Of a stretch of DNA of 64,000 bases, positions 37,598 to 60,093 are shown in pieces. Below the pieces are notes generated by a model. That model saw nothing but the letters and a program-made list of their open reading frames with translations. It had not been told where the DNA came from and did not search any database. The position numbers and the translations under genes are program-made. This DNA comes from Actinomycetota bacterium. Its GTDB lineage: Bacteria > Actinomycetota > Nitriliruptoria > Nitriliruptorales > Nitriliruptoraceae. Every line of letters begins with the position of its first letter. Positions within the stretch are counted from its first letter, which is position 1. The DNA lies in NCBI GenBank assembly GCA_019347575.1, contig JAHWKY010000020.1, positions 1 to 64,000 on the forward strand, given 5' to 3'.

Positions 37598-37614
37598 ATC
37601 CACCTCCCCGCGCT

Positions 37615-37673
37615 GTGCTACCGCTTCGCTACTTGAGCACTGTCGCTGTGCTACCGCTTCGCTGCTTGAGCAC
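37615..37673. repeat. Structured repeat family, array A (2 units)
   Basis: Two 26-bp cores at 37615-37640 and 37648-37673, period 33 bp, oriented minus. Each has an outer stem GTGCT/AGCAC and inner GC-GAA-GC. They lie between the CoA-transferase start and the MarP-like stop. Confidence 0.85.
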
Positions 37674-37699
37674 TGGCGGGCGTGACGGTACCGGGTTGC

Positions 37700-40153: not shown

Positions 40154-41317
40154 TCAGGCACCTCGCGTGATCGCGCCACCGATCGTGGCCCAGGCAGGAT
40201 GCCGGGGGTCGATCACGTCGAAGTGGCCGGCACCGTCGATGACGACGTGATCGACCGCGTCGCCGCTCGCCCGAGCGGCGACGGCGTAGGTCGCGCCCTG
40301 GGAGGCAGGGACGAGCCGATCGTCCGCTCCGTGCACCACGGTCTGCGGCACTCCGATCGGGACCAGCTCCAGCGGCGACGCCTCCGCGAGGCGGGAGGAG
40401 CGGTCCCCGATGAACCGCGACACCGCACCTCCTCCGAGCCCGTCGCGGTGTGCAGTCGGCAGATCGAGCACGCCTCCCAGCGTGACCACGTGGACGGGGC
40501 GGGGCCGACCGGGATCGTGCGCGGCGCTGGCTGCGTACCACACCGCTAGTTGCGCCCCGGCCGAGTGCCCGGCCAGCGTGAGTCGCGACGTGTCGAGTGG
40601 CAGCCGCTGGGCGAGCTCCTCGAGGTGTCCGATGCCCGCTGCTACATCGTGGGCGGTGGTGGGCCACCCACCGTGGCCACCCACGCGTCGGTACTCGAGG
40701 TTGACGGTGACGGCACCGGCGCTGGTCAGGTCGACGGCGACACCCTCCATGAGGTCCCGCTCCCAGGGCTGGAGCCAGAACCCCCCGTGCAGGAGCACCA
40801 CGACCGGGTGCCGACCGTCTCCGACAGGTAGGCGCACGTCGGCCACGAGATCGGGGTGGTCGCCGTAGCTGAAGGTCTGCACCGGCCACACCTTGCGGTG
40901 GACCAGGTGGTGCAGCGCCCACCGGAACCCGTCCGCGCCCCGCCCGTGGATCGTCCACACGCACGCCGGACTCAGCAGCGATGCCGGTGCGCCGGGAAGG
41001 GAGCGGTCGCGGAGCTGTACCTCGACGACCGGGATAGACACCTCGAGCAGCGCCGCGGCGAGCGCCTGGGACTCGAAGGCGAGGGGGCCGGGGTGGAGCA
41101 CGACACCGTCGTAGTCGGCGGCTGCATCGCGGAGTCGCTCCAGCAGCGCCTCGTCGCTGCGCGGCTGGTCGATGTCGACCCGCACGCCCACCTCGGCTCC
41201 CCAGATGTCGCACAGCGCGTCGAGCTCGCGCAGGTCCCGCGGCGCCGCCAGCGGTCCATGGCGATCGACGGCGGCGTCCGGGCCGTGCAGGACCAGGACG
41301 CGACCCACGCCGTTCAC
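40154..41317 (-). CDS. Fusion: degenerate dehydroquinase-II-like domain plus alpha/beta hydrolase (possible formylkynurenine formamidase)
   Basis: A 387-residue two-domain protein. Residues 1-140 resemble type II 3-dehydroquinate dehydratase (VLVLHGPDA, DYDGVVLHPGPLAFESQALAAAL, IPVVEVQLRD, HGRGADGFRWALHHL). The catalytic positions are lost: the EVHLSN His is Gln99-Leu-Arg-Asp, and the LGxRxPxxYG loop is absent. Residues 150-387 are an alpha/beta hydrolase with HGGFW (177-181), GHSAG (nucleophile Ser252), Asp332 and His365, the pattern of kynurenine formamidase-like esterases. GTG 41317 overlaps the acyl-CoA dehydrogenase stop. With kynA and kynU nearby, formamidase is a good guess but unproven. 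Confidence 0.8.
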   Translation of the reverse strand: MNGVGRVLVLHGPDAAVDRHGPLAAPRDLRELDALCDIWGAEVGVRVDIDQPRSDEALLERLRDAAADYDGVVLHPGPLAFESQALAAALLEVSIPVVEVQLRDRSLPGAPASLLSPACVWTIHGRGADGFRWALHHLVHRKVWPVQTFSYGDHPDLVADVRLPVGDGRHPVVVLLHGGFWLQPWERDLMEGVAVDLTSAGAVTVNLEYRRVGGHGGWPTTAHDVAAGIGHLEELAQRLPLDTSRLTLAGHSAGAQLAVWYAASAAHDPGRPRPVHVVTLGGVLDLPTAHRDGLGGGAVSRFIGDRSSRLAEASPLELVPIGVPQTVVHGADDRLVPASQGATYAVAARASGDAVDHVVIDGAGHFDVIDPRHPAWATIGGAITRGA

Positions 41318-42441
41318 TCGCTGGCTCCCAGCAGCGAGCGGGCGATGATCGTGCGCTGGATCTCCGACGTCCCCTCGTAGATCCGCGTCGCGCGGACGTC
41401 GCGGTACAGGTGCTCGAGCAGGTGTCCGCGCTGGAGCGCTCGCGCCCCGTGGATCTGCACCGCCGCATCGATCACGAACTGGGCGGCCTCGGTGGCGTAG
41501 AGCTTGGCCATCGCGGATCGCTGGGTGAGCTGGTCGGTCCGGCCCTCGTCGTACGCCGCCGCTGCGGCGTAGACCAGCAACCTGGCCGCCTCGAGCCGCG
41601 TCGCCATGTCCGCGAGGGGATGCGAGACGGCCTGGAACTCGGCGATGGGATGACCGAACGCCTCTCGGTCCCGGGCGTGCTGCACCGCCGCGTCGAGCGC
41701 GGCCTGGCCCATGCCCACCGCGAACGCCCCGACCGAGGGACGGAACAGGTCGAGGGTGCGCATCGCGACGCGGAACCCGTGGTCGACCTCGCCCAGGACC
41801 GTCTCGGCACGGACGCCGTCGAACGTCAGCGTGCCGATCGCGTGCGGGGCGAGCAGATCGAGCGGCTGGCCCGCGAGACCATCGCTGTCGCCCGCGACGA
41901 CGAACGCGGTCACCCCACGCGCACCCGCTTCCGGCGTCGTCCGAGCGAAGACCGTGTACACGTCGGCCGACGGTGCGTTGCTGATCCACGTCTTGGTTCC
42001 GCTGAGGCGCCAGCCGTCGCCGTCGGGGTCAGCCTTCAGGGCGATGGCAGCGGCGTCGGAGCCGGCATCCGGCTCGGTCAACGCGAACGCGGCGATCGCC
42101 TCACCCGATGCCACGGCCGGGATCCACCGCTGTGCGACCTCGTCGCTCGCCGACTGCAGGATGGGGTAGGCGCCCAGGCCCTGCACGGCGAGGGCGGTCT
42201 CGGCCGCCGTGCTCTCCTGTGCCAGACCCTCGCGCAACACGCACAGCTCGGTGGCGTTGACGGTCGTGTCGGCACTGCCGCCGTGCGTCCGGGGGAAGAG
42301 GCGGGGGAGCAGTCCCGATGTGCCGAGCAGGCGGACGAGCTCGCGGTCCACGCGCCCGGTCTCGGGACCGAGCTGGGGCACGACGTGGTCGCGCGCGATG
42401 CGCCGCACATCGTCGACCCGGCGCGCTAGTCCGTCGTCCAA
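41314..42441 (-). CDS. Acyl-CoA dehydrogenase
   Basis: A 375-residue FAD-dependent dehydrogenase. Blocks: LVRLLGTSGLLPRLFPRTHGGS, FALTEPDAGSDAAAIALKA (flavin), GWRLSGTKTWISNAPSADVYTVFART, HARDREAFGHPIAEFQAVSHPLADM, and QIHGARALQRGHLLEHLYRDVRATRIYEGTSEIQRTIIARSLLG, with the catalytic Glu in YEGTSEIQ. TTG 42441 is chosen because GGGAGG lies 8 nt upstream. It is divergent from the flavin-reductase/ACMR-like operon. It may act on a reduced cyclohexane-carboxyl-CoA intermediate, which is inference. It is followed by the hydrolase fusion with a GTGA overlap. Confidence 0.88.
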   Translation of the reverse strand: MDDGLARRVDDVRRIARDHVVPQLGPETGRVDRELVRLLGTSGLLPRLFPRTHGGSADTTVNATELCVLREGLAQESTAAETALAVQGLGAYPILQSASDEVAQRWIPAVASGEAIAAFALTEPDAGSDAAAIALKADPDGDGWRLSGTKTWISNAPSADVYTVFARTTPEAGARGVTAFVVAGDSDGLAGQPLDLLAPHAIGTLTFDGVRAETVLGEVDHGFRVAMRTLDLFRPSVGAFAVGMGQAALDAAVQHARDREAFGHPIAEFQAVSHPLADMATRLEAARLLVYAAAAAYDEGRTDQLTQRSAMAKLYATEAAQFVIDAAVQIHGARALQRGHLLEHLYRDVRATRIYEGTSEIQRTIIARSLLGASE

Positions 42442-42478
42442 CGACCCCGCCTCCCGCGACGTGCCGAGGGTGCGGCCC

Positions 42479-42496
42479 CCACCGTAGCTACGGTGG
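42479..42496. promoter_or_regulatory. Perfect 18-bp palindrome in a divergent promoter
   Basis: CCACCGTAGCTACGGTGG is an exact palindrome midway between the divergent acyl-CoA dehydrogenase and luciferase-like genes. Each strand reads TACGGT inside it, a possible -10 for both directions. It is a likely operator coordinating the two operons of the anthranilate island. No other copy was noticed in the window. Confidence 0.6.
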
Positions 42497-42541: not shown

Positions 42542-43393
42542 GTGCGGGTCGGAGTGGGTCTGCCCACCACCACGCCCCGCGACGATCCCGCCGTCCTGCT
42601 CGACTGGGCGCGCGACGCCGAGGCCGGTCCGTTCACGAGCCTCGGCGTGGTGGACCGGGTCGTCTACGACAGCCACGATCCGCTGACCACGCTCGCGGCT
42701 GCCGCGGCCGTCACCGAGCGGGTACGTCTGGTGACGATGATCGCCATCGCCCCGATCCGCAACGCCACCATCCTCGCCAAGCAGGCCGCGTCCATCGATG
42801 CGCTCTCGGGTGGACGGCTGGTGCTCGGCCTGTCGTTGGGGGCACGCGAGGACGACTACCTCGCGACCGGTGCCGCGTGGCGTGACCGCGGGCGCAGCTT
42901 CGACCGCCAGCTCGCCCGCATCCGCGAGGTGTGGGAGGACCCGGCGATCGGACCTCACGGAGGGGCGCAGGACGGACCGCCCCTCCTGGTCGGTGGGGGA
43001 AGCGCCCCCGCGTTCCTGCGGACCGCGCGGTCCGCCGATGGCTACGTCCACGGAGGCGGCCCTCCACGAGCGTTCGACAGTGCGGCATCACACGCGCGCA
43101 GCGCGTGGGTCGATGCGGGGCGACCCGGCGAGCCGCAGCTGTGGGGCCAGTCGTACTTCACGCTGACCGACCCGGACGCCGGTGACGCCTACCTGCGCGA
43201 CTACTACGCCTTCACCGGCGCGTTCGCCGAGCGCATCGCCGCCGACCTACTCACCTCCCCCGAGGCGGTGCAGGACCGCGTCCGCGGCTACCGCGACGCC
43301 GGCTGCCAGGAACTCGTGCTGCTTCCTGCCACCTCCGATCCCTCCGAGCTGTCCCGCCTGGCCGAGGCCGTCGCCCCGGTGGTGAACGGGTGA
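42542..43393 (+). CDS. LLM-class (luciferase-like) flavin-dependent oxidoreductase
   Basis: A 283-residue TIM-barrel protein using FMN or F420. It shows VRVGVGLPTTTPRDDP, DRVVYDSHDPLTTLAAAAAVTERVRLVTMIAIAPIRNATILAKQAASIDALSGGRLVLGLSLGAREDDYLATG and the C-terminal helices. GTG 42542 has GGGAGG 5 nt upstream. It is first in a five-gene operon with the two-domain flavoprotein, SDR, enoyl-CoA hydratase and RidA. A monooxygenase or reductase step in the ring-degrading pathway is plausible, but no substrate is shown. Confidence 0.85.
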   Translation: MRVGVGLPTTTPRDDPAVLLDWARDAEAGPFTSLGVVDRVVYDSHDPLTTLAAAAAVTERVRLVTMIAIAPIRNATILAKQAASIDALSGGRLVLGLSLGAREDDYLATGAAWRDRGRSFDRQLARIREVWEDPAIGPHGGAQDGPPLLVGGGSAPAFLRTARSADGYVHGGGPPRAFDSAASHARSAWVDAGRPGEPQLWGQSYFTLTDPDAGDAYLRDYYAFTGAFAERIAADLLTSPEAVQDRVRGYRDAGCQELVLLPATSDPSELSRLAEAVAPVVNG

Positions 43394-45540
43394 GGGTCGC
43401 CATCGTCGGAGGTGGACCGGCCGGGCTCTACCTGGCGATCCTGCTCCTGCGTGACGAACCTGGCCACGATGTCGTCGTCTTCGAGCAGAACCCCCGAGGC
43501 GCGACGTTCGGCTGGGGCGTCGTGTTCAGCGAGGACACCCTGACCGAGCTGCGTGACGCCGACTACGAGACCTGGCTCGACCTCGACCGCCACCTCGTGC
43601 GCTGGGGTGGCATCGACATCCACCGCCACGACGAGACGGTACGTGCGAGCGGCCACGGCTTCTCCGCCATCCGGCGCCTGACGCTGCTGCAGCGTCTGGC
43701 TGCACGTGCCACCGCACTCGGCGCCGATGTGCGCTACGAGACGGCGGCCGACGCGCTCGTCCTCAGCGACGAGTACGACGTCGTCGTGGCGGCCGATGGC
43801 GTGCACAGCCCGACGCGCCAGCAGCTGCAGAAGGAGTTCGGGAGCTCCGACGCGGAGCACGGTGGCACCTTCGCCTGGTTCGGCACCGACCACGTCTTCG
43901 AGGTGTTCACGTTCATCTTCCGCGAGACCGACCACGGCCTGTTCACGGTCCACGCCTACCCGTTCGACGCCGGCTTCAGCACGTTCATCGTCGAATGCGA
44001 CCACGACACGTGGCGGCGCGCCGGACTGGACACGATGACCGAGGACGACAGCCTGGCGTTCTGCCACGACCTGTTCGCCGATCACCTGCGGGGCGGGAGG
44101 CTGCTGTCGAACCGGTCGGTGTGGCGGCGCTTCACCACCGTGCGCAACCGCTCGTGGCACCACCGCAACGTCGTGCTGGTGGGGGACGCGGCGCACACCG
44201 CCCACTTCTCGATCGGGTCGGGGACCAAGCTCGCGATGGAGGACGCGATCGCGTTGTCGAAGGCCTTCGTCGCGCACCCCGGCGATCCGGATGCGGCCTT
44301 CACCGACTACGAGCTCGAGCGTCAGGGACCGGTCGAGCGCTTCCAGGAAGCCGCCATCGACAGCGCCGACTACTTCCTCGCGCTCGTGCGCGGCCGCTAC
44401 CGCGGTCTGTCGCGCGAGCAGTTCGTGTTCAACCTCCTCACGCGCAGCGGACGCATCCTGCGCAGCGACCTGCAGCAGCGCGATCCCCGCACCGTCGCGG
44501 CGGTCGACCGCAACCTCCGTCATCGCAGCAGCGGTGAGACCCGCCTGATCGGCGCCCCGCCCTCGCTCGCGAGCTTCCGCGTCGGGTCGCTGGTCCTCGC
44601 CAACCGCATCGCGTTGCAGCCGCCTCCCGGTGACACCGCTCGCGAAGGCACGCCCGGGACACCCGAGTTCGCGACGTACGGCCGCGCCGCCGCGACCGGT
44701 GCCGGGCTGATCATCACCGAGCCCGTCGCCATCTCGGCACACGGCCGGGTCACCAGCGGCTCCCCGGGTCTGTACCGGGATGAGCACGTCGCGGCGTGGC
44801 GCCGCATCGTCGAGACCGTCCACGGAGAGGGCGCGGTCATCGCGGCCCGCCTGGGTCACTCGGGGCGGCGGGGCGCGACCCGGCCCCGTCAGCGCGGCCT
44901 GGACCGTCCGCTTCGCGACCACGCCTGGACGGTGCCGGCGCCGTCACCGCTGCCGTACACCCCGTGGAGCCAGGAGCCGGCAACAGCGGAGGCGGACGGC
45001 TCGGTGATCGAGGACGTGCGTCGGGCCGCCCACCGGGCGCGCGAGGCCGGCTTCGACCTGCTGCTCCTGGATGCCTCCGACGGCTACCTGTTCGCGAGCT
45101 ACCTGTCCCCGCTGACCAACCACCGCGACGACCACTACGGGGGCGACCTGCTGTCGCGGCTGCGGTACCCCCTCGAGGCGTTCGCCGCGGCCCACGAGGG
45201 TTGGGGCGAGGGACCCGTCGGTGTGCGGCTCACGGTCGACGACCGCGTGCCCGGCGGGCTCACCGCCGACGACGGCGTCGAGCTCGCACGCGCGTTCGTC
45301 GACGCCGGAGCGGCCCTGGTGGCCGTCGCCGCGGGCCACACCGTCCCGCGCATCTCGACCTCGCAGACCTACCGGCGACGGTTCCTGGTGCCGCTGGCCG
45401 ACCGGATCCGCAACGAGGCCGGGGCGCGGACTCTCGTCGGAGGCAACGTGACCACCTTCGACGAGATCGACACCATCGTCGCAGCGGGGCGCGCCGATCT
45501 CGTGGTGCTCGACCCCGTGCGCTTCCTGGAGGAGAGCTGA
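43390..45540 (+). CDS. Bifunctional FAD monooxygenase/OYE-type reductase (2-aminobenzoyl-CoA or salicylyl-CoA type)
   Basis: A 716-residue fusion. Residues 1-380 are a class A flavin hydroxylase with RVAIVGGGPAGLYLAILLL, VVAADGVHSP and LVGDAAHTAHFSIGSGTKLAMEDA (near 265). From about 386 to the end is an old-yellow-enzyme reductase: GSLVLANRIALQPP, AARLGHSGRRG, LSPLTNHRDDHYGGDLLSRLRYPLEAF and RADLVVLDPVRFLEE. Two characterised enzymes have this architecture: 2-aminobenzoyl-CoA monooxygenase/reductase, which hydroxylates and then reduces the ring of anthraniloyl-CoA, and salicylyl-CoA 5-hydroxylase. The nearby kyn genes favour the former. GTG 43390 overlaps the upstream stop (GTGA); the stop touches the SDR start (TGATG). 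Confidence 0.85.
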   Translation: MRVAIVGGGPAGLYLAILLLRDEPGHDVVVFEQNPRGATFGWGVVFSEDTLTELRDADYETWLDLDRHLVRWGGIDIHRHDETVRASGHGFSAIRRLTLLQRLAARATALGADVRYETAADALVLSDEYDVVVAADGVHSPTRQQLQKEFGSSDAEHGGTFAWFGTDHVFEVFTFIFRETDHGLFTVHAYPFDAGFSTFIVECDHDTWRRAGLDTMTEDDSLAFCHDLFADHLRGGRLLSNRSVWRRFTTVRNRSWHHRNVVLVGDAAHTAHFSIGSGTKLAMEDAIALSKAFVAHPGDPDAAFTDYELERQGPVERFQEAAIDSADYFLALVRGRYRGLSREQFVFNLLTRSGRILRSDLQQRDPRTVAAVDRNLRHRSSGETRLIGAPPSLASFRVGSLVLANRIALQPPPGDTAREGTPGTPEFATYGRAAATGAGLIITEPVAISAHGRVTSGSPGLYRDEHVAAWRRIVETVHGEGAVIAARLGHSGRRGATRPRQRGLDRPLRDHAWTVPAPSPLPYTPWSQEPATAEADGSVIEDVRRAAHRAREAGFDLLLLDASDGYLFASYLSPLTNHRDDHYGGDLLSRLRYPLEAFAAAHEGWGEGPVGVRLTVDDRVPGGLTADDGVELARAFVDAGAALVAVAAGHTVPRISTSQTYRRRFLVPLADRIRNEAGARTLVGGNVTTFDEIDTIVAAGRADLVVLDPVRFLEES

Positions 45541-46277
45541 TGGGCCGCACCGCTGTCGTCACGGGAGGCAACAAGGGCATCGGCCGCGCGGTGGCCGCCC
45601 GCCTGGTCGAGCTCGGCCACGACGTCACGGTGACCGGCCGGGACGAGCAGGCCCTGTCGGCGGTCGCGTCCGAGCTGGGGGTGCAGACAGCCGCGTTCGA
45701 CATCACCGACGAGGACGCGGTGGGGGCGTTCTTCGACGGCCGCTCGGTGGACATCCTGGTGGCGAACGCGGGGCGCGATCTTGCTGCGCCGGTGCACCGC
45801 ACCAGCCTCGAGGACTGGAACACGATCCTGGCGATCAACGCGACCGGGGTTTTCCTCTGCATGCGCGCCGTCATCCCCGGGATGAAGGAGCGTGGGTGGG
45901 GCCGTATCGTCACCCTGGCTTCGGTGGCGGGGGTGCAGGGCATGCGCTACACGGGCGCCTACGCCGCCTCGAAGCACGCGGCCGTGGGGTTGACCAGGGC
46001 TGCCGCGCACGAGCTCATCGGGACCGGCGTTACCGCCAACGCGGTCTGCCCGGCGTTCGTCCGCACCGAGATGGTCGAGCGCACGCTCGCGAACATCCAG
46101 CAGCGCACGGGGCGCTCCGAGGACGACGCCTTGCGCGATCTGCTGCAGGTCCAGGCCCTCCCGCGTCTCATCGAGCCCCAGGAGGTGGCCGCGGCCGTCG
46201 CCTACCTCGCCTCCGAGGACTCAGGCGCGGTCAACGGGCAGACGATCGTGATCGAGGGCGGGGAGGTGCAGCGGTGA
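45540..46277 (+). CDS. SDR-family dehydrogenase
   Basis: A 245-residue SDR: TAVVTGGNKGIGRAVAARL, SVDILVANAGRD, RIVTLASVAGVQGM (Ser), YAASKHAAVGL (Tyr, Lys) and VNGQTIVIEGG at the end. It is of 3-oxoacyl/3-hydroxyacyl-CoA dehydrogenase style. ATG 45540 shares its A with the preceding TGA (TGATG), and GGAGGAGAG lies just upstream. It probably oxidises or reduces an alcohol intermediate between the flavoprotein and hydratase steps. The last bases of the gene are duplicated 56 bp downstream. Confidence 0.87.
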   Translation: MGRTAVVTGGNKGIGRAVAARLVELGHDVTVTGRDEQALSAVASELGVQTAAFDITDEDAVGAFFDGRSVDILVANAGRDLAAPVHRTSLEDWNTILAINATGVFLCMRAVIPGMKERGWGRIVTLASVAGVQGMRYTGAYAASKHAAVGLTRAAAHELIGTGVTANAVCPAFVRTEMVERTLANIQQRTGRSEDDALRDLLQVQALPRLIEPQEVAAAVAYLASEDSGAVNGQTIVIEGGEVQR

Positions 46278-46343: not shown

Positions 46344-47160
46344 TGCGTCCGCGCCGCTGACCTCCGACTGGGAACACCTGCGGTTCGAGGTTTCGCAGCG
46401 CGTGGGCACCGTGACGTTCACACGCCCCGACAAGCTGAACGCGCTGACGCTCGACGTGTACGCCGACCTGCGCGACCTGCTGGCCGAGATCGAGCATCGC
46501 GGTGACGTCGATGCGCTGGTGATCGCGGGGGAGGGGCGCGGATTCTGTGCCGGCGGCGACGTCCACGCGATCATCGGGGCGCTGCTCGAGCGGGGCGACA
46601 AGCGCGAGGTGTTCGCGTTCACGCGCATGACCGGGGCGGTCGTGCAGCGGATGCGCGAGCTGCCGGTGCCGATCGTCGCCGCGGTCAACGGCGTGGCGGC
46701 GGGGGCCGGGGCGGTCATCGCACTGGCCGCCGACCTGCGCGTGCTGGCGCGGTCGGCGAGCTTCCGGTTCCTGTTCACCCAGGTCGGCCTAGCCGGCGCC
46801 GACATGGGGTGCGCCTACCTACTGCCGCGGGTCGTGGGGCTGGGGCGGGCGACCGAGATGCTGCTGCTCGGTGACGCCGTCGACGCCGAGTCGGCCGAGC
46901 GCTACGGGTTGGCGAACCGGGTCGTCGATGACGACGCGCTGATGTCGGAGGTGTCGGCGCTGGCGCGGCGGCTGGCCGACGGGCCGACGTGGGCGGTGGC
47001 CGCGACCAAGAACCTGCTCACGCGCGAGCAGGACACCTCGCTCGGGGCCGCCATCGACCTCGAGGCGTGGACCCAGGCGTTCCTGATGACGGCTGAGGAC
47101 CACGCGGAGTTCTACGCCGCGTTCCAGGCGGGGCGCGACCCCCAGTGGCGCGGCCGCTGA
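46330..47160 (+). CDS. Enoyl-CoA hydratase/isomerase
   Basis: A 276-residue crotonase protein: FEVSQRVGTVTFTRPDKLNALTLDVY, LVIAGEGRGFCAGGDVHAI (oxyanion hole), VPIVAAVNGVAAGAGAVIALAADLRVLA, FLFTQVGLAGADMGCAYLLPRVVG (the usual catalytic Glu is Gly-Ala-Asp here) and AATKNLL. GTG 46330 is the second copy of a duplicated start; the ribosome-binding GAGGTG is 7 nt upstream. In 2-aminobenzoyl-CoA degradation such enzymes handle ring-derived enoyl-CoA and sometimes cleave the ring. It is followed by RidA. Confidence 0.87.
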   Translation: MSGFRASAPLTSDWEHLRFEVSQRVGTVTFTRPDKLNALTLDVYADLRDLLAEIEHRGDVDALVIAGEGRGFCAGGDVHAIIGALLERGDKREVFAFTRMTGAVVQRMRELPVPIVAAVNGVAAGAGAVIALAADLRVLARSASFRFLFTQVGLAGADMGCAYLLPRVVGLGRATEMLLLGDAVDAESAERYGLANRVVDDDALMSEVSALARRLADGPTWAVAATKNLLTREQDTSLGAAIDLEAWTQAFLMTAEDHAEFYAAFQAGRDPQWRGR

Positions 47161-47684: not shown

Positions 47685-49046
47685 TCAGGCGATGACGGGG
47701 ACCTTCTCCATGGCGGCGCGGACCTTCTCCTCGGGGTACTCGAAGTCCTCGAGGCGCCCCGACAGGTACTCGTCGTACGCCTGCATGTCGAAGTGGCCGT
47801 GGCCGCACATGGCGGTGAGGATGACCTTCTCCTCGCCCGTCTCGCTCGCCTTCTGTGCCTCGCGCACCGCCGCGGCGATCGCGTGGGTGGGCTCCGGGGC
47901 GGGGATGATCCCCTCGGTCTGGGCGAACAGCACCCCGGCCTTGAAGCACTCCGTCTGACCGATCGCCTCCGCCTCGACCAGCCCCAGCTCGTAGATGTGG
48001 CTCAGCAGCGGCGACATGCCGTGGTAGCGCAGGCCACCCGCGTGGATGGGGTCGGGCACGAAGTCGTGGCCGAGCGTGTGCATCTTGACGAGCGGCGTCA
48101 TGCCGGCGGTGTCACCGAAGTCGTAGCGGTACTCGCCCTTCGTGAACGACGGACACGCCGCGGGCTCGACGCACCGGATGGTCGGGTCCATGTTCCCGGC
48201 CATCTTCTCGCGCAGGAACGGGAAGCTCAGACCGGCGAAGTTCGACCCACCGCCGGTGCAGCCGACGATGACATCCGGCGTGTCGCCGACCTTCGCGAGC
48301 TGGAGCAGTGTCTCCTCGCCGATGATGGTCTGGTGCATCAGCACGTGGTTCAGGACGCTGCCGAGCGCGTACTTCGTGTGGTCGTCCTGGGCGGCCACCT
48401 CGACCGCCTCGCTGATCGCGATGCCCAGGCTCCCGGGGGAGTCGGGCGCGTCCTTCAGGATGGCGAGGCCCGCCTGGGTGATGTCGCTAGGAGACGCGTG
48501 GACGGTGGCGTTCCACGTCTCCATCATCACGCGCCGGTACGGCTTCTGGATGAACGAGGCGGCGACCTGCCACACCTCGCACTCGAGGCCGAACATGGCA
48601 CAGGCGAGCGCGAGCGCCGATCCCCACTGGCCCGCCCCGGTCTCGGTGGTGAGCTTGCGGACGCCCTCCTGGGCGTTGTAGTAGGCCTGTGGGACCGAGG
48701 TGTTGGGCTTGTGGGACCCCGTCGGCGAGACGCCCTCGTACTTGTAGTAGATCCGCGCCGGGGTGCTCAGCGCCTTCTCGAGCCGGTGCGCCCGGTACAG
48801 CGGGCTCGGCCGCCACATCCGGTACGCGTCGAGGACCGGCTCGGGGATGTCGATGTAGCTGTCGGTGCTGACCTCCTGCATGATCAGCGCCATCGGGAAC
48901 AGCGGGGCGAGGTCCTGTGGACCGATCGGCTCGTGCGTCCCCGGGTGCAGCACCGGCGGTGGAGGCTCCGGCAGATCCGGGATGATGTTGTACCAACGGG
49001 TCGGCATCTCCGATTCTTCGAGCAGGATCTTGGTCTGGTCCGCCAT
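47685..49046 (-). CDS. trpB: Tryptophan synthase beta-like protein, TrpB2 type
   Basis: A 453-residue PLP enzyme of the TrpB2 branch, recognised by [68 protein letters not shown] (PLP lysine), [14 protein letters not shown] and [12 protein letters not shown]. TrpB2 proteins condense indole with serine, often without TrpA. ATG 49046 has CAGGGAG about 6 nt upstream. It is the third gene after kynA and kynU, 43 nt downstream of kynU. No trpA is present. Its role next to a Trp-degrading pair is unclear: indole salvage or a balancing reaction. Confidence 0.9.
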
Positions 49047-49089
49047 GTCGGGCTCCCTGGTCGTCGCACTCCCGGTGCGCTGACGATAG

Positions 49090-50238
49090 TCAGCCGAGGG
49101 CGGACCGTGCGCGGGCCAGGAGTTCATCAACGTCGCCCTCGTCGTGGTAGACGCCGAACCCGACCCGCAGGCGGTCGCCGCGATGGTCGGCGATCACCTT
49201 CTCGCGCCGTAGTGCGGCGCGGATCTCGGCGGCCTGGGGCGAGCGGAAGGTGAGGAAGTTGCCGCGATCCGGGACGTCGCAGGGCGGGAGCAGCTCGCCG
49301 AGGTCGAGGTCGGCGGTGGCGTCGACGAACCGCTCCTGCAGCCCGCGCACGTGGGCGTGGATGGCCTCGACGTCGATGCCCTCGGCCGCGAGGAGCCGCT
49401 GCACCGCGTTGAAGCGGTAGAGCGCTGAGGGATCGAACGTCGAACCCCAGAACCGGTCGGCGCCGTGCTGGTAGCGGACCCTGTCGTCGACCCCCTGATC
49501 GAGGTCGCTGAACGCGGCGAACCAGCCGGTGTCGACGGGGCGCTCCCCGTAGCCAGGGGGGACGTGGAGGAACACCGCCCCCTCACCCGACATCGCGTAC
49601 TTGTAGCCCCCGGCGAGGTAGAAGATCCGGGGTCCGAGGGCGCGCAGGTCGACCGGCAGCGCCATGAACGCGTGGTAGCCATCCACCACGACGAAGGTGG
49701 CATCGTCGGGGACCGCGGCCAGCAGCCGCGGCAGGTCGGGCACGACGTAGCCGGAGTCGAAGAACACGTGGCTGAGGAACACCAGATCGTGCTCGCCCAC
49801 GCGCGCGGCGTCGGCGAAGCGGTCGGTGAAGGTCGCGAACGGCTCGGCCGGGACACGCTCGACCACCGCGTCGCCGGCCTCCTGCAGGCGGCGCGACTGG
49901 CGGCTGAAGCTGTGGAACTCCGCATCGGTGGTCAGGATGCGGGCGGGGCGTGGCAGGCACGAGATGATGCGCAAGACGAACTCGTGGGTGTTCGGGGCGA
50001 AGACCATCGACATCGGGTCGCTGAGGCCGACGGTGTGGGCGATGTGCCCCTGCGCCTCGGGGATGACGGTCTCGAAGACGTGATCCCACTTGTCGTCGTG
50101 CATCGCGGCCGCGTCGAGCCACGCCTGCTGCTGGGCGTCGAAGGTTGCGTCGGGCCACGGGTGGTGGCTGTGCGCAGCGACGTGAAGGCGCTCCGGGTCG
50201 GACGTGAGGAACCGCGAGAACGCGTGCTTGAGGTTCAC
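49090..50238 (-). CDS. kynU: Kynureninase-like PLP enzyme (class V aminotransferase fold)
   Basis: A 382-residue protein, probably kynureninase (kynurenine to anthranilate plus alanine). [85 protein letters not shown] (PLP lysine in GYKY), [11 protein letters not shown] and [30 protein letters not shown] fit the family. GTG 50238 overlaps the kynA stop (GTGA), which supports coupled tryptophan degradation. The sequence is divergent from typical KynU, so a related cysteine-desulfurase-type enzyme cannot be excluded. Confidence 0.8.
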
Positions 50239-51344
50239 CCGCCGGACCACCGGAACTGCATCGCCTGGCGCATGTCCTCCGGCAGCTCCGGCAGGTGAGA
50301 ACGGGGGATCAGGAACGTCGCGAGGTCGAAGAGGTCGCGGAAGACGCGGTGCCGCTCGGCGGCCTTGCGCAGGTACGCCGCCCCGCTGGTCCCTCCGGTG
50401 CCGATGCGCCCGCCGATCATGCGCTGCGCCATCAGGGCGTGGCGGTAGCGCCACGTCGTGAACCCCTCGTCCACGTCCATCAGCGCTTCGAGCAGCCGGA
50501 ACGGCAGCTGCATGATGGGTTCGTCCCGGTACAGCGTGATCTCGAGTGCGGCGAGGAACGCCATCCGGGACAGGTGCCGGTAACCGCGCGCCATCAACGC
50601 GTCGTAGCGCTCGTCGTCGAACAGCGCCTCGTAGTGCGCGACCGTCTCCTCGAACCGCTCGAGCTGAGCCTGGCGCGTCCCCTCGTCGAGGTTGGGGTTG
50701 GTCTCGATCAACCGACGATCGCGTCCGATCATCTCCTCGACGGCCCCGCGGTAGGCGGTCCAGAAGTCGAACCCTTCCCAGCTCAGGAACGGCGTGCGTT
50801 CGAGCCAGCGCTCGACGTGGTCGATGAGCGCGGGCTCCTCCTCCGAGTCCAGCAGCTGCTGGGCGTGCACCGACGTGAGACGGGAGTGGTACGGCGCCCC
50901 GTCGATCTTCAGTCGGTACGCGGGATCGAGGCCGAGTCGGTTCTCGATGAGGCGGAACTGCACGCTCTGGAAGCCCGATGCGGGGATGAGCATGTCGCGG
51001 AAGTCGAGGAAGTCCAGCGGCGTCATCGTCTCGAGCACCGAGATCTGGTCGATCAGCAGCCGCTGGATCTCGATGATGCGGCGCAGGTGACTCACCGTGC
51101 GCCCGACGTCCCGCTCGGCGACCTCGTCCTGACCCATCATCTGCAGGACCGCATCGAGCTCCCACAGGATCTGCTTGAACCACAGTTCGTAGGCCTGGTG
51201 CACGATGATGAACAGCATCTCGTCGTGCGCGGTCGTCCCGGCCTTCGCGCTCTCGAGCCGCTGCGCCCCGAGCACGTCGTCGAGGTGGAGGTAGTCCGCG
51301 TAGTAGAGCGGAGCGTCCCCGCCAGCCGTGGCGTCGTCGGTCAT
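50235..51344 (-). CDS. kynA: Tryptophan 2,3-dioxygenase
   Basis: A 369-residue haem dioxygenase that opens the indole ring to N-formylkynurenine. Landmarks: YYADYLHLDDVLGAQ, MLFIIVHQAYELWFKQILWELDAV, RDMLIPASGFQSVQFRLIE, DEGFTTWRYRHALMAQRMIGGRIGTGGTSGAAYL. The proximal haem His lies in the W-R-Y-R-H segment. ATG 51344 follows TAGGGT by exactly 7 nt, a leaderless arrangement. It is first in kynA-kynU-trpB2. An inverted repeat lies near its -35 region. Confidence 0.93.
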   Translation of the reverse strand: MTDDATAGGDAPLYYADYLHLDDVLGAQRLESAKAGTTAHDEMLFIIVHQAYELWFKQILWELDAVLQMMGQDEVAERDVGRTVSHLRRIIEIQRLLIDQISVLETMTPLDFLDFRDMLIPASGFQSVQFRLIENRLGLDPAYRLKIDGAPYHSRLTSVHAQQLLDSEEEPALIDHVERWLERTPFLSWEGFDFWTAYRGAVEEMIGRDRRLIETNPNLDEGTRQAQLERFEETVAHYEALFDDERYDALMARGYRHLSRMAFLAALEITLYRDEPIMQLPFRLLEALMDVDEGFTTWRYRHALMAQRMIGGRIGTGGTSGAAYLRKAAERHRVFRDLFDLATFLIPRSHLPELPEDMRQAMQFRWSGG

Positions 51345-52147: not shown

Positions 52148-53755
52148 TCAGCGGAGGCGCAGCGCCCCGACCCCGGCGAGCACCAGACCGAGGAACGCCA
52201 GCCCGGCCCCGGTGGTTGGCAGCGGAGGACCGTCCGGGGCGGGGTCAGGCGCCGGAGGCGGAGCGGGAGCCGGTGCACCACCACCCGCGGACCGGAACGC
52301 CACGCAGTCGTCGAGCGGTTCGCCGGCGACGCTGTGCCGCGACGCGCGCTCGTCGAGCAGCAACCCGATCACCGGCTCCGCGGTCTGGCCCATGTCCACG
52401 AACACGCCGGCGTCGACCCCAGCGGACCCGATGTCGTGGAGTTCGAAGGCGGTCCCGACTGTCTCGGCCTGGTCTGCGGTGAGCAGGTAGCCACACGGCG
52501 GCGGGTCGGCGAACGACGTCGACTCGGCCTGGCCCGTGCCGGTTACCGTCGTGTCCTCGAACTGGCCGTTGAAGAACAGCGGGGCGCTGCGGTCCTCGCC
52601 CTCCTGCTCCTTGACGACGCGGGACTCCTCGGCGGTCGCGCGGACCTGCTCGCCGTTGGCTCGGTAGTACTCCAGCGTGCACTCCATGACGCGGTAGTGG
52701 CCATCCACGCGGCGGTTCTGGTTCGCCGCGGAGTCGAGTTCGCCGGTCGGGTTGCGCGGGTCGGGCAGCAAGCCCGACTCGATCAGGATCCCGAGGCTGT
52801 GCCGCAGCCCCGCGGCGTTGCGCGAGATCCCCTCGTCCGGTCCTCCGGCGGTCTGGGTCAGGTCCTGGTCGCCGAACTCGTTGATGCCGTACTCGTCGCC
52901 GCTGAACCCCTCCTCCTCGAGGCAAGGATCGATGTGGTCCTGCAGGAACGTCTTCGCCAGGTCGCGTACTGGCTTGTGGACGTTGAGGTTGCGGGGCCAC
53001 ATGTAGGTGATGTGGTCGTCGTAGAACAGCGGGGTCTGGCCGTACTCGTGGTGGTCGAGGGCCATGTCCGGGGTCCAGTCACGGATCACACGGGCGATGG
53101 CGCGTGCCTCGAGCGTCTCGAGGTTGAGGTGGTCGCGGTTGATGTCGATGCCGTCGGCGTTCCACCGGGTGTTGGCCTCGCGGCCGTCGGGGTTCGCGGT
53201 CGGCATGAAGATGATCGTGTGGTCCTCGAGCTGGCTCACGAGCGTGGGGTCGTCGGTGAACGCGAGATCACGGATCCAGCGCAGGCACCCTTCACGCGGC
53301 GCCGGCTCGTTGCCGTGCTGGGTGCAGAAGATGAACACGGTCGGCTCCTCCTGCGCTGCTTCGACACCGCGGGGCGTGGGGTGGCCGACCTCGACGAGGT
53401 GCAGCGGCCTGCCCTGGACGCTCTCGCCGACGACGCTGACCTCGACGCGGTCGGACCCGTCGGCAACCGCCTCGAGGAAGGCCAGCTCGCCCTCGTGCGA
53501 GGTCCACTCGGCCCCGCCGCTGGCCTCGAACTCGGTGGTCGGCGGTCCGTCCTGGGCGAGCGCCGGCAGCGCGATCGATCCGGCGAGCAGCAGCGATGAG
53601 GCGACGATGACAGCACGGAACCTGTGCTCAAGCAGCGAAGTGGTGGCACGGAGCCTGTGCTCAAGCAGCGAAGTGGTGGCACGGAGCCTGTGCTCAAGCA
53701 GCGAAGCGGTAGCACGGAGCCTGTGCTCAAGCAGCGAAGCGGTAGCACGGAGCAA
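52148..53755 (-). CDS. LPTTG-anchored M14 zinc carboxypeptidase with repeat-derived N-terminus
   Basis: A 535-residue exported peptidase. TTG 53755 has GAGAGGG 5 nt upstream. Residues 5-48 are four 11-residue units (TASLLEHRLRA-like) encoded by the 33-bp repeat. A signal segment (VIVASSLLLAGSIALPALAQ) follows. Catalytic zinc motif TQHGNEP (His147, Glu150), the second His in ALDHHEYGQ, and the catalytic Glu in LGILIESG are present, so it is likely active. The C-terminus is Pro/Ala-rich, then LPTTG (512-516), a hydrophobic helix and RLR, a sortase signal. Without the repeats the N-terminus would read MLRAVIVASS. No other in-frame ATG, GTG or TTG lies before the signal. Confidence 0.85.
   Translation of the reverse strand: MLRATASLLEHRLRATASLLEHRLRATTSLLEHRLRATTSLLEHRFRAVIVASSLLLAGSIALPALAQDGPPTTEFEASGGAEWTSHEGELAFLEAVADGSDRVEVSVVGESVQGRPLHLVEVGHPTPRGVEAAQEEPTVFIFCTQHGNEPAPREGCLRWIRDLAFTDDPTLVSQLEDHTIIFMPTANPDGREANTRWNADGIDINRDHLNLETLEARAIARVIRDWTPDMALDHHEYGQTPLFYDDHITYMWPRNLNVHKPVRDLAKTFLQDHIDPCLEEEGFSGDEYGINEFGDQDLTQTAGGPDEGISRNAAGLRHSLGILIESGLLPDPRNPTGELDSAANQNRRVDGHYRVMECTLEYYRANGEQVRATAEESRVVKEQEGEDRSAPLFFNGQFEDTTVTGTGQAESTSFADPPPCGYLLTADQAETVGTAFELHDIGSAGVDAGVFVDMGQTAEPVIGLLLDERASRHSVAGEPLDDCVAFRSAGGGAPAPAPPPAPDPAPDGPPLPTTGAGLAFLGLVLAGVGALRLR
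53624..53748. repeat. Structured repeat family, array B (4 units, in frame in carboxypeptidase)
   Basis: 26-bp cores begin at 53624, 53657, 53690 and 53723, period exactly 33 bp. All four lie inside the N-terminal codons of the M14 carboxypeptidase and contain no stop in that frame. Confidence 0.9.
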
Positions 53756-53848: not shown

Positions 53849-55360
53849 GTGGGGTTCGAGGTGCCGGTGCGGTTCAACCTCGCCGATCACTTCCTCACGG
53901 CGCGGCTCGAGGCCGGCGACGCGGACCGCGTGGCGCTCCGGCTCGACGACCGTGACGTGACCTACGCACAGGTCCACGCCCTGAGTCAGGCCTTCGCCGC
54001 GCGCCTCATCGAGCTCGACGTTCGGGTCGAGGAGCGCGTCGTCATCGCGCTGCCCGACGGCGCGGCCTACGTCGGGGCGCTGTTCGGGATCGTCACGGTC
54101 GGGGCGGTCGTCGTGATGGTCAACCCCGACCTGCCCGCGGACGCACTCACGGCGATCCTGCACCAGAGCCGGGCCCGGGTCCTCATCACGGACGAGAGCG
54201 GACGGACCGACGAGGCGGTCGCCAGCGCCCGCACCGTGCAGCACGTGCTCACCGTCGACCCGGCCGTGGGCCCGTCGACGAACCGTGAGGCCGTCGCGAC
54301 GGCAGCGACCCACCGAGACGACGCCGCGATCTGGCTGTTCAGCGGCGGCACGACCGGCGCCCCGAAGGCGGTGCCACAGACCCACCGCTCCTTCGCCAAC
54401 ACGACCGAGCGCTACGGCAAGGGCGTGCTCGGGATGCGCCCCGACGACATCACCATCTCCGTACCCAAGCTCTACTTCGGCTACGCGACGGGTTCGAACC
54501 TGCTGTTCCCGTTCTCGGTCGGCGCGTCGACGGCGCTGTTCGCCGAACGCGCCACGCCCGAGGCGTTGTTCGAGCGCATCGCGCGCCACGACGCCACGAT
54601 CCTTGTCACCGTCCCGAAGATGGTCAGCGCGATGCTCGATCAGGACGAGCCGACGGACCTGTCGAGCCTGCGTCTCGCGACGTCGGCGGGAGAGGCCCTG
54701 CCGGCCAAGCTGTACCAGCGGTGGGTCGATCGCTTCGGTGTCGAGCTGCTCGACGGCCTCGGTACCGCCGAGATGTGGCACATCTTCCTCAGCAACCGCC
54801 CCGACGACGTCCGTCCCGGGACGCTGGGTCGTGCGGTGGTTGGCTTCGAGGTGCGGGTGCGCGACGAGGAGGGGGCCGATCTGCCTCACGCCCAGGTCGG
54901 CCACCTGTGGGTGAGGGGCGACTCGCGCGCGCTCGGGTACTGGCACAACGCCGACGAGACGGCGCGGACCTTCCGTGGTGAGTGGGTGGTCACGGGCGAC
55001 CTGGTCTCGCAGGACGCCGACGGCTACGTCAGCTACGTGGGGCGAGCTGACGACGCGCTCAAGGTCGGAGGCAAGTGGGTCATCCCCTCCGAGGTGGAGG
55101 GTTGCCTGCTCGAGCACGACGCCGTGCGCGAGGCGGCGGTGATCGGGGTGCCCAACGACGCCGGCCTCACCGAGCCGGTGGCGTTCGTTCTCCTCGGCGA
55201 TGTCGAGACCTCGCACGGCATCGAGGCGGAGCTGCGCCAGCACGTCCTCGACCGGCTCGAGCCGCACAAGCATCCCCGGAAGGTGGTCGTGCTCAACGAC
55301 TTCCCCCGCACCCACCTCGGCAAGGTCGACCGTGGCGCCCTGCGCCGATCGGGGACCTGA
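53849..55360 (+). CDS. Benzoate-CoA-ligase-family AMP-forming ligase (possible 2-aminobenzoate-CoA ligase)
   Basis: A 503-residue acyl-CoA synthetase. FNLADHFLTARLE at the start and KLYFGYATGSNLLFPFSVGAS are characteristic of benzoate/aminobenzoate-CoA ligases. The AMP-binding loop is FSGGTTGAPKAV; WVVTGDLVSQDADGYVSYVGRADDALKVGGKWVIPSEVEG is the hinge, and HLGKVDR has the catalytic Lys. GTG 53849 has GGGAGAA upstream. It is separated from the kyn operon only by the pseudogene and carboxypeptidase. The aromatic acid it activates is not proven; anthranilate from kynureninase is the contextual candidate. Confidence 0.88.
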   Translation: MGFEVPVRFNLADHFLTARLEAGDADRVALRLDDRDVTYAQVHALSQAFAARLIELDVRVEERVVIALPDGAAYVGALFGIVTVGAVVVMVNPDLPADALTAILHQSRARVLITDESGRTDEAVASARTVQHVLTVDPAVGPSTNREAVATAATHRDDAAIWLFSGGTTGAPKAVPQTHRSFANTTERYGKGVLGMRPDDITISVPKLYFGYATGSNLLFPFSVGASTALFAERATPEALFERIARHDATILVTVPKMVSAMLDQDEPTDLSSLRLATSAGEALPAKLYQRWVDRFGVELLDGLGTAEMWHIFLSNRPDDVRPGTLGRAVVGFEVRVRDEEGADLPHAQVGHLWVRGDSRALGYWHNADETARTFRGEWVVTGDLVSQDADGYVSYVGRADDALKVGGKWVIPSEVEGCLLEHDAVREAAVIGVPNDAGLTEPVAFVLLGDVETSHGIEAELRQHVLDRLEPHKHPRKVVVLNDFPRTHLGKVDRGALRRSGT

Positions 55361-56854: not shown

Positions 56855-57411
56855 CGACGATCCAGCGCGTGTGCGTCTTCTGCGGCACCTCGGCGGGTGA
56901 CGACGAGGTATACGCCGACGCCGCTCGCGACTTCGGCACCGCCCTCGCCGAAGCGGGCATCGACCTCGTCTACGGCGGGTCGAGCCTCGGCATGATGCGG
57001 CTCGTCGCCGACGCCGTCCTCGACCGGGGCCGTCAGGTGATCGGGGTGATGCCGCGTCACCTGACCGACCGCGACGTCCCCTACGAACGCGCCACCGAGC
57101 TGCACCTCACCGAGACCATGCACGAGCGCAAGGCCCACATGTTCGAGCTCGCCGACGCGTTCGTGGCGCTGCCGGGCGGGCTGGGCACGCTCGACGAGCT
57201 CATGGAGATCTCGACCTGGGCCCAGCTCGGCCTGCACGACAAACCCATCGCGATCCTCAACGTCGCGGGCTACTTCGACCAGCTGGCCTCGTGGCTGGAC
57301 CACGCCGTCGAGCACACCTTCCTGGCTCCGCGCCACCGCGAGCGGATCGCCGTCCTCGACGACCTCGCTGCTCTGCTCCACTACCTGAGTGCTCAGGTAG
57401 CGAAGCGGTAG
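56851..57411 (+). CDS. LOG-family protein (nucleotide phosphoribohydrolase)
   Basis: A 186-residue Rossmann-like protein: RVCVFCGTSAGDDEVYADAARDFGTALAEAGIDLVYGGSSLGMM, VIGVMPRHLTDRDVPYERATELHLTETMHERKAHMFELADAFVALPGGLGTLDELMEISTWAQLG. PGGLGTLDE is the catalytic signature of LOG proteins, which release free bases from nucleoside monophosphates. GTG 56851 overlaps the decarboxylase TGA. Its last eight residues (LSAQVAKR) and TAG stop are encoded by the structured repeat, so the natural C-terminus was probably changed by repeat insertion. Confidence 0.88.
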   Translation: MTTIQRVCVFCGTSAGDDEVYADAARDFGTALAEAGIDLVYGGSSLGMMRLVADAVLDRGRQVIGVMPRHLTDRDVPYERATELHLTETMHERKAHMFELADAFVALPGGLGTLDELMEISTWAQLGLHDKPIAILNVAGYFDQLASWLDHAVEHTFLAPRHRERIAVLDDLAALLHYLSAQVAKR

Positions 57412-57480
57412 CACGACGTGAGTGCTCAGGTAGCGAAGCGGTAGCACGACGTGAGTGCTCAGGTAGCGAAGCGGTAGCAC
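57389..57480. repeat. Structured repeat family, array C (3 units)
   Basis: 26-bp cores at 57389, 57422 and 57455, period 33 bp, plus orientation. The first core carries the stop codon of the LOG gene. Confidence 0.9.
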
Positions 57481-57512
57481 GACGTGTACCACCGGACCCG
57501 GGGAGGCGATCC

Positions 57513-60001: not shown

Positions 60002-60011
60002 CCTCTTGGGT

Positions 60012-60071
60012 GTGCTATCGCTTCGCTTCTTGAGCACTTTCGGGTGTGCTACCGCTTCGCTGCTTGAGCAC
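60012..60071. repeat. Structured repeat family, array E (2 units)
   Basis: 26-bp cores at 60012-60037 and 60046-60071, spaced 34 bp, minus orientation. They lie between the exonuclease start and the oxidase stop. Confidence 0.85.
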
Positions 60072-60093
60072 TCTTGCGTCAGCACGCACGACC

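Follow-up and report, generated by a model that had tools for sequence, protein, structure and literature searches.

Operons that join tryptophan 2,3-dioxygenase (TDO), kynureninase (KynU), and a formamidase have been described in Streptomyces. The set in S. roseosporus is Orf3245-3244-3243, with Orf3243 the predicted formamidase (PMC9058172), while the TDO-KynU-formamidase genes of S. coelicolor (Zummo 2012) are taken here as cited in PMC4243253. The last steps of a route leading further, from 2-aminobenzoyl-CoA to 2-amino-5-oxocyclohexenecarbonyl-CoA, are described for Azoarcus evansii (PMC4539516). For the type II dehydroquinase of Corynebacterium (DHQD), alanine replacement of N12, R19, Y24, N75, H81, E99, H101, R108, or R112 abolishes activity (PMC10772564).

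The stretch of DNA analyzed here, 64,000 nucleotides from an Actinomycetota bacterium and referred to as the window, encodes a protein of 387 amino acids in which a type II dehydroquinase domain, inactive to judge by its residues, is followed by an alpha/beta-hydrolase. No paper describing a dehydroquinase-hydrolase fusion was found in the open-licence literature searched; both families are known, but their pairing and the graded decay reported below appear undescribed in those papers. The gene probably encodes a serine-hydrolase N-formylkynurenine formamidase whose N-terminal domain is a dead descendant of AroQ, kept under relaxed purifying selection.

A dehydroquinase domain fused to a serine hydrolase

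The fusion gene is a single open reading frame at 40154..41317 on the minus strand, a reading backed by Pfam and AlphaFold2 (AF2). It starts with GTG, with GGGAG upstream, and its initial GTGA overlaps by 4 nt the stop of the upstream gene of the same operon, which encodes an acyl-CoA dehydrogenase (ACAD; 41314..42480, minus strand) and is a conserved neighbor. The dehydroquinase-like domain spans residues 6-141 (40895..41302) and the hydrolase domain residues 150-387 (40157..40870). Pfam model PF01220 (DHquinase_II) matches residues 7-138 with E=4.6e-14 and 52.8 bits, against a cutoff of 23.3; residues 7-139 match solved dehydroquinases in a phmmer search of PDB (2uyg, E=4.6e-13); and hhalign aligns the domain to 18 standalone AroQ sequences with a probability of 99.5% and E=2.6e-22. 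The hydrolase segment, compared to AroQ as a control, reaches 0.7%, so the assignment stands far above chance. AF2 models the whole chain as a monomer with a mean pLDDT of 94.3 and pTM of 0.93, and pLDDT exceeds 90 across most of the dehydroquinase-like domain. Evidence for the dehydroquinase fold is thus profile-based plus AF2 secondary structure, the structural matches listed being taken up by the hydrolase domain. These results establish the identity of both halves, as a preliminary description made from sequence had proposed.

The closest dehydroquinase to the window's domain, at 40% identity, is an intact homolog at locus L075. Alignment to it shows the replacements N12D, Y24A, N75H, H81F, H101Q, R108S, and R112A, a loss of seven of the nine essential residues; E99 is kept and, less surely, R19. 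The lid loop is two residues shorter. From its sequence, then, the domain is judged catalytically dead, and the preliminary description was right that the catalytic Tyr loop is gone and that a His has become Gln. The domain does not reach aroQ equivalog level (55.8 bits by NCBIfam model TIGR01088, cutoff 169.85), and the window genome carries a standalone aroQ on another contig.

The hydrolase half is intact. BD-FAE matches residues 164-342 (1.3e-17) and Abhydrolase_3 residues 173-365 (1.5e-10) in Pfam. Alignment places an HGGFW oxyanion-hole motif at residues 177-181 (40775..40789) and a catalytic triad, already claimed in the preliminary description, of Ser252 in GHSAG (40562..40564), Asp333 (40319..40321), and His365 (40223..40225), all on the minus strand. 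H177, G178, G179, W181, and the three triad residues are near-invariant in a 27-row alignment, and F180 is variable. The alpha/beta-hydrolase fold, Ser-Asp-His triad, and HGG motif by which a serine-hydrolase kynurenine formamidase is recognized are all present. By fold comparison, the nearest solved structures are HSL-type esterases; Drosophila kynurenine formamidase 4e15 ranks 48th (E=4.9e-13, TMq 0.55), with many esterases scoring similarly.

Stages of decay in the fused domain

Thirteen other genomes of the same class, plus three more distant ones (G057, G177, G278), encode the fusion; a scan of genome contigs with the fusion returned hydrolase-only relatives. In four genomes (loci L074, L075, L076, and L089), missed in the preliminary description, the fused dehydroquinase is intact, with all active-site motifs, and is the sole type II (PF01220) gene of its genome. 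No kyn genes lie near these four. The DHquinase_II score falls from 180 bits at L075 to 53 in the window and 18 at L085, and Pfam detects no such domain at L077, L081, L086, L060, or L071. Profile-profile probability to AroQ likewise declines from 99.5 for the window to 94.7 (L080/81/88), 92.7 (L077/78/79/83), 90.2 (L085), 8 (L082/86), and 1.4 (L060/71), against 0.7 for the control; for the last two groups, kinship to AroQ is drawn from a short motif at the domain's end and from membership in the hydrolase clade. At L082 and L086 only about 100 amino acids of the domain are left. The best-kept part of the decayed domain is the strand-helix that ends it, GRGxxGxxWAxxHL, which immediately precedes the hydrolase. 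Since the front end of the fusion is intact in some relatives and far more worn in others, the decay of an enzyme can be traced in stages; the intact-to-decayed series is established, and the window is one stage of it.

A tree of the hydrolases unites all decayed fusions with the intact L075 and L076 in one clade (support 96/93) and leaves the positions of L074 and L089 open. Tests of a single clade for all fused dehydroquinase domains gave p-AU values of 0.23 and 0.19, which neither reject nor establish it. As a separate observation, L074:8168-12112 (G057) and L138:6415-8852 (G045) represent the same locus, with aminotransferase, aroQ, and lipoate-ligase-like genes; the hydrolase is fused to aroQ there in G057, and G045 is without it.

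Constraint reverses along the series. The intact pair conserves the dehydroquinase more than the hydrolase (78% vs 50% identity; dN/dS 0.17 vs 0.43), while decayed pairs conserve the hydrolase more than the N-domain (54-72% vs 43-60% identity; dN/dS 0.23-0.39 vs 0.35-0.58), with the dN/dS values, Nei-Gojobori estimates on high-GC genomes, to be read as indicative only. Decay graded down to the undetectable, under constraint weaker than that on the hydrolase, is what a neutral relic without a role and heading for loss would leave. We consider such a relic unlikely, since the N-domain dN/dS lies below 1 in ten of ten decayed pairs, AF2 confidence is high over most of the domain, and complete loss of the N-domain was not seen within the fused clade.

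Kynurenine gene neighborhoods

Around the fusion, the window encodes much of a probable tryptophan-degrading route. On the plus strand lie an LLM-class oxidoreductase in a divergent operon (42545..43393), a 2-aminobenzoyl-CoA monooxygenase/reductase-like protein (ACMR, an FAD monooxygenase plus OYE; 43390..45540) that is PRK08255-like at 748 bits, under the 1078 cutoff, and takes its function from context, a short-chain dehydrogenase (SDR1; 45540..46277), and an enoyl-CoA hydratase family protein (ECH; 46366..47160; PRK08258 at 361.6 bits, over cutoff). These are followed on the minus strand by a TrpB-like PLP enzyme (47685..49052; TIGR01415 over cutoff), a KynU-like gene (49090..50154), and kynA, encoding TDO (50235..51341; PF03301 at 1.3e-106, TIGR03036 below cutoff). 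The KynU-like gene has no NCBIfam match at 1e-5, and its assignment comes from context and from 55-61% identity to the gene beside kynA in relatives. A benzoate-CoA ligase family member (53849..55360, plus strand; TIGR02262 over cutoff) is a candidate anthranilate-CoA ligase. Together, these genes fit conversion of tryptophan through N-formylkynurenine, kynurenine, anthranilate, and 2-aminobenzoyl-CoA to 2-amino-5-oxocyclohexenecarbonyl-CoA.

The formamidase step is otherwise without an assigned gene, because the KynB model TIGR03035 has no match at all in the window genome, the fusion protein included, and canonical KynB was rejected as the formamidase there; among 24 genomes it has none over cutoff. 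The fusion would fill this apparent gap. A second family member in the window genome (L084:4925-6846) overlaps a gene whose product is a class-V PLP enzyme containing KYNU_C and scored by the kynureninase model at 96 bits, below cutoff; beside this kynureninase-like gene, the paralog is an alternative formamidase candidate.

Further features of these genomes may be recorded. The TrpB-like enzyme recurs next to TDO, kynU, or the fusion (window, L080, L081, L086, L088, L097, L101, L111), and in several relatives lacking the fusion (L105, L106, L110, L111) TDO has a nadD-like gene rather than kynU next to it or close by. Intergenic tandem units of 33-34 bp with the core AGTAGCGAAGCGGTAGC occur in the window at 37611-37675, 53612-53753, 57379-57486, and 60008-60072; the core is found at 67 places genome-wide with at most one mismatch, against none for a reversed control, and the units are a dispersed short tandem repeat family.

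Within the class, decayed fusions adjoin kynA/kynU, TrpB-like, or 2-aminobenzoyl-CoA genes in 11 of 12 cases, the window included, where L081 qualifies by the TrpB-like gene alone and L082 by ACAD alone. For hydrolase-only homologs of the same class the count is 0 of 12, L084 with its distant KynU-like neighbor being among them. The difference (Fisher p=9.6e-6) is indicative only, since related genomes are not independent. The fusion is encoded with TDO and/or kynureninase in the window and at L085, L088, and L080 (KynU), and hydrolase relatives are so encoded at L073 and L037-L039. At L085 the order is kynA-kynU-fusion with end-to-end overlaps of 4 nt. At L094-L096 a kynA-kynU operon has no adjacent formamidase; elsewhere in these genomes, the fusion belongs to an ACAD-SDR-ECH-RidA operon. 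Outside the class, a hydrolase-only relative completes a TDO-KynU-hydrolase operon at L073, and others directly precede kynU in Haliea, Arenicella, and Glaciecola. Recurrence of the fusion and its linkage are thereby established, bearing out the kyn connection first drawn from the window alone.

That linkage extends to genes further down the route, and the hydrolase could instead act in the 2-aminobenzoyl-CoA branch, for example as a thioesterase or as a ring-opening hydrolase on the ACMR product. The fusion shares an operon with ACAD in the window and at L082/L086 and with ECH-RidA at L077-L079 and L083, and no TDO was found in G310, which has both fusion and ACMR. Yet L115, L117, and L118 have ACMR, ACAD, SDR, ECH, and RidA and lack the hydrolase; L085 sets the fusion directly after kynA-kynU; and no such CoA genes were detected around the hydrolase-only relatives that adjoin kynU. 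L115 and L117 carry, besides LLM, a PF04199 cyclase and a ThDP enzyme, apparently isatin hydrolase and isatinate decarboxylase, and at L118 a PF04199 cyclase (E=3e-6) follows RidA in the position held by the fusion in f4 genomes. No hydrolase of the fusion's family occurs in the 2-aminobenzoyl-CoA clusters L115, L117, L118, L121, and L122. Its absence from clusters with an apparent isatin route ties the hydrolase to the upper kynurenine route rather than to the CoA part, and a role in the lower branch seems quite improbable. Clusters L115, L117, L121, and L122, with PF04199 cyclase and ThDP decarboxylase, are themselves what would be expected for isatin or indole-acetate breakdown.

No better a prospect is a general esterase without a specific kynurenine role, its linkage incidental: the nearest solved structures are broad esterases, and some family members bear signal or lipoprotein peptides, but linkage to KynU/KynA comes up repeatedly in distinct family branches. 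The hydrolase beside kynU in marine Gammaproteobacteria opens with an apparent signal peptide (L037:9842-11970, L038:9839-11944, L039:10001-11880), which suggests a candidate exported formamidase.

N-formylkynurenine formamidase, as the preliminary description had suggested, remains the best reading of the gene context. The enzyme would join TDO to kynureninase, Ser252 serving as nucleophile and the HGG motif as oxyanion hole to remove formate by the acyl-enzyme route usual in the family. Set against this are the structural proximity to HSL-type esterases rather than fly kynurenine formamidase, the acyl-CoA dehydrogenase as nearest operon partner in the window, and the L084 paralog. Fused genes and kynU-linked hydrolase-only genes, moreover, lie on separate branches of the hydrolase tree, so a common function is not guaranteed, and G057, with an intact fusion but no TDO, may use its hydrolase in another role.

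The N-domain would descend from an active AroQ once joined to a member of this hydrolase family. Along the lineage linked to kynurenine genes, the shikimate step would fall to a separate aroQ, and the fused domain would have lost catalysis while its fold was kept, probably as a packing or oligomerization element; packing is suggested by the position of GRGxxGxxWAxxHL. Active type II dehydroquinases form dodecamers of trimers, and the preliminary description had put forward oligomerization or ligand sensing as possible roles for the dead domain. That the dead domain senses quinate, shikimate, or an aromatic intermediate to control the hydrolase, a conversion known for inactive enzyme domains and compatible with the confidently predicted fold, is very doubtful, given loss of the substrate-binding H81 and R112, shrinkage at L082/L086 with no shared new pocket motif, and conservation that is best beside the hydrolase. 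More tentatively, the ancestral fusion may have been bifunctional, a dehydroquinase for tryptophan biosynthesis and an N-formylkynurenine formamidase for its breakdown, as it might still be in genomes like G247 (locus L075), where no type II dehydroquinase or formamidase candidate other than the fusion was found; the biosynthetic half would have become a dead scaffold in the window lineage, its graded stages preserved.

Comparison with described systems

If these assignments are correct, an enzyme of tryptophan breakdown bears at its N terminus a dead version of one that normally serves to build tryptophan. The fusion would then be a third candidate architecture for the formamidase, which is less conserved than any other enzyme in the kynurenine pathway. 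Intact, dead but recognizable, and barely recognizable forms make up a natural series in which the change of a catalytic domain into a structural one after fusion can be studied. They also pose an annotation risk, as intact and early-decay forms may be mislabeled plain AroQ or esterase.

With type II 3-dehydroquinate dehydratase (AroQ, PF01220), the window domain shares the fold and the sequence profile over residues 7-138, but it differs in its missing active-site residues, shortened lid, attached C-terminal hydrolase, and score far under aroQ equivalog cutoffs. The Streptomyces TDO-KynU-formamidase operon has the same gene order as the hydrolase-only homolog at L073 and lacks the dehydroquinase domain; that gene order is what suggests Orf3243 belongs to the window hydrolase family. 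Bacterial KynB (cyclase family, PF04199/TIGR03035) shares the proposed reaction, although its metal-dependent fold is unrelated to the window hydrolase. The alpha/beta-hydrolase kynurenine formamidases of eukaryotes (KFase/AFMID; Drosophila 4e11/4e15; PMC4243253) share the fold, the Ser-Asp-His triad, and the likely reaction; the window protein is bacterial, only about 16-19% identical, nearer to HSL-like esterases, and, unlike them, carries an N-terminal dehydroquinase domain.
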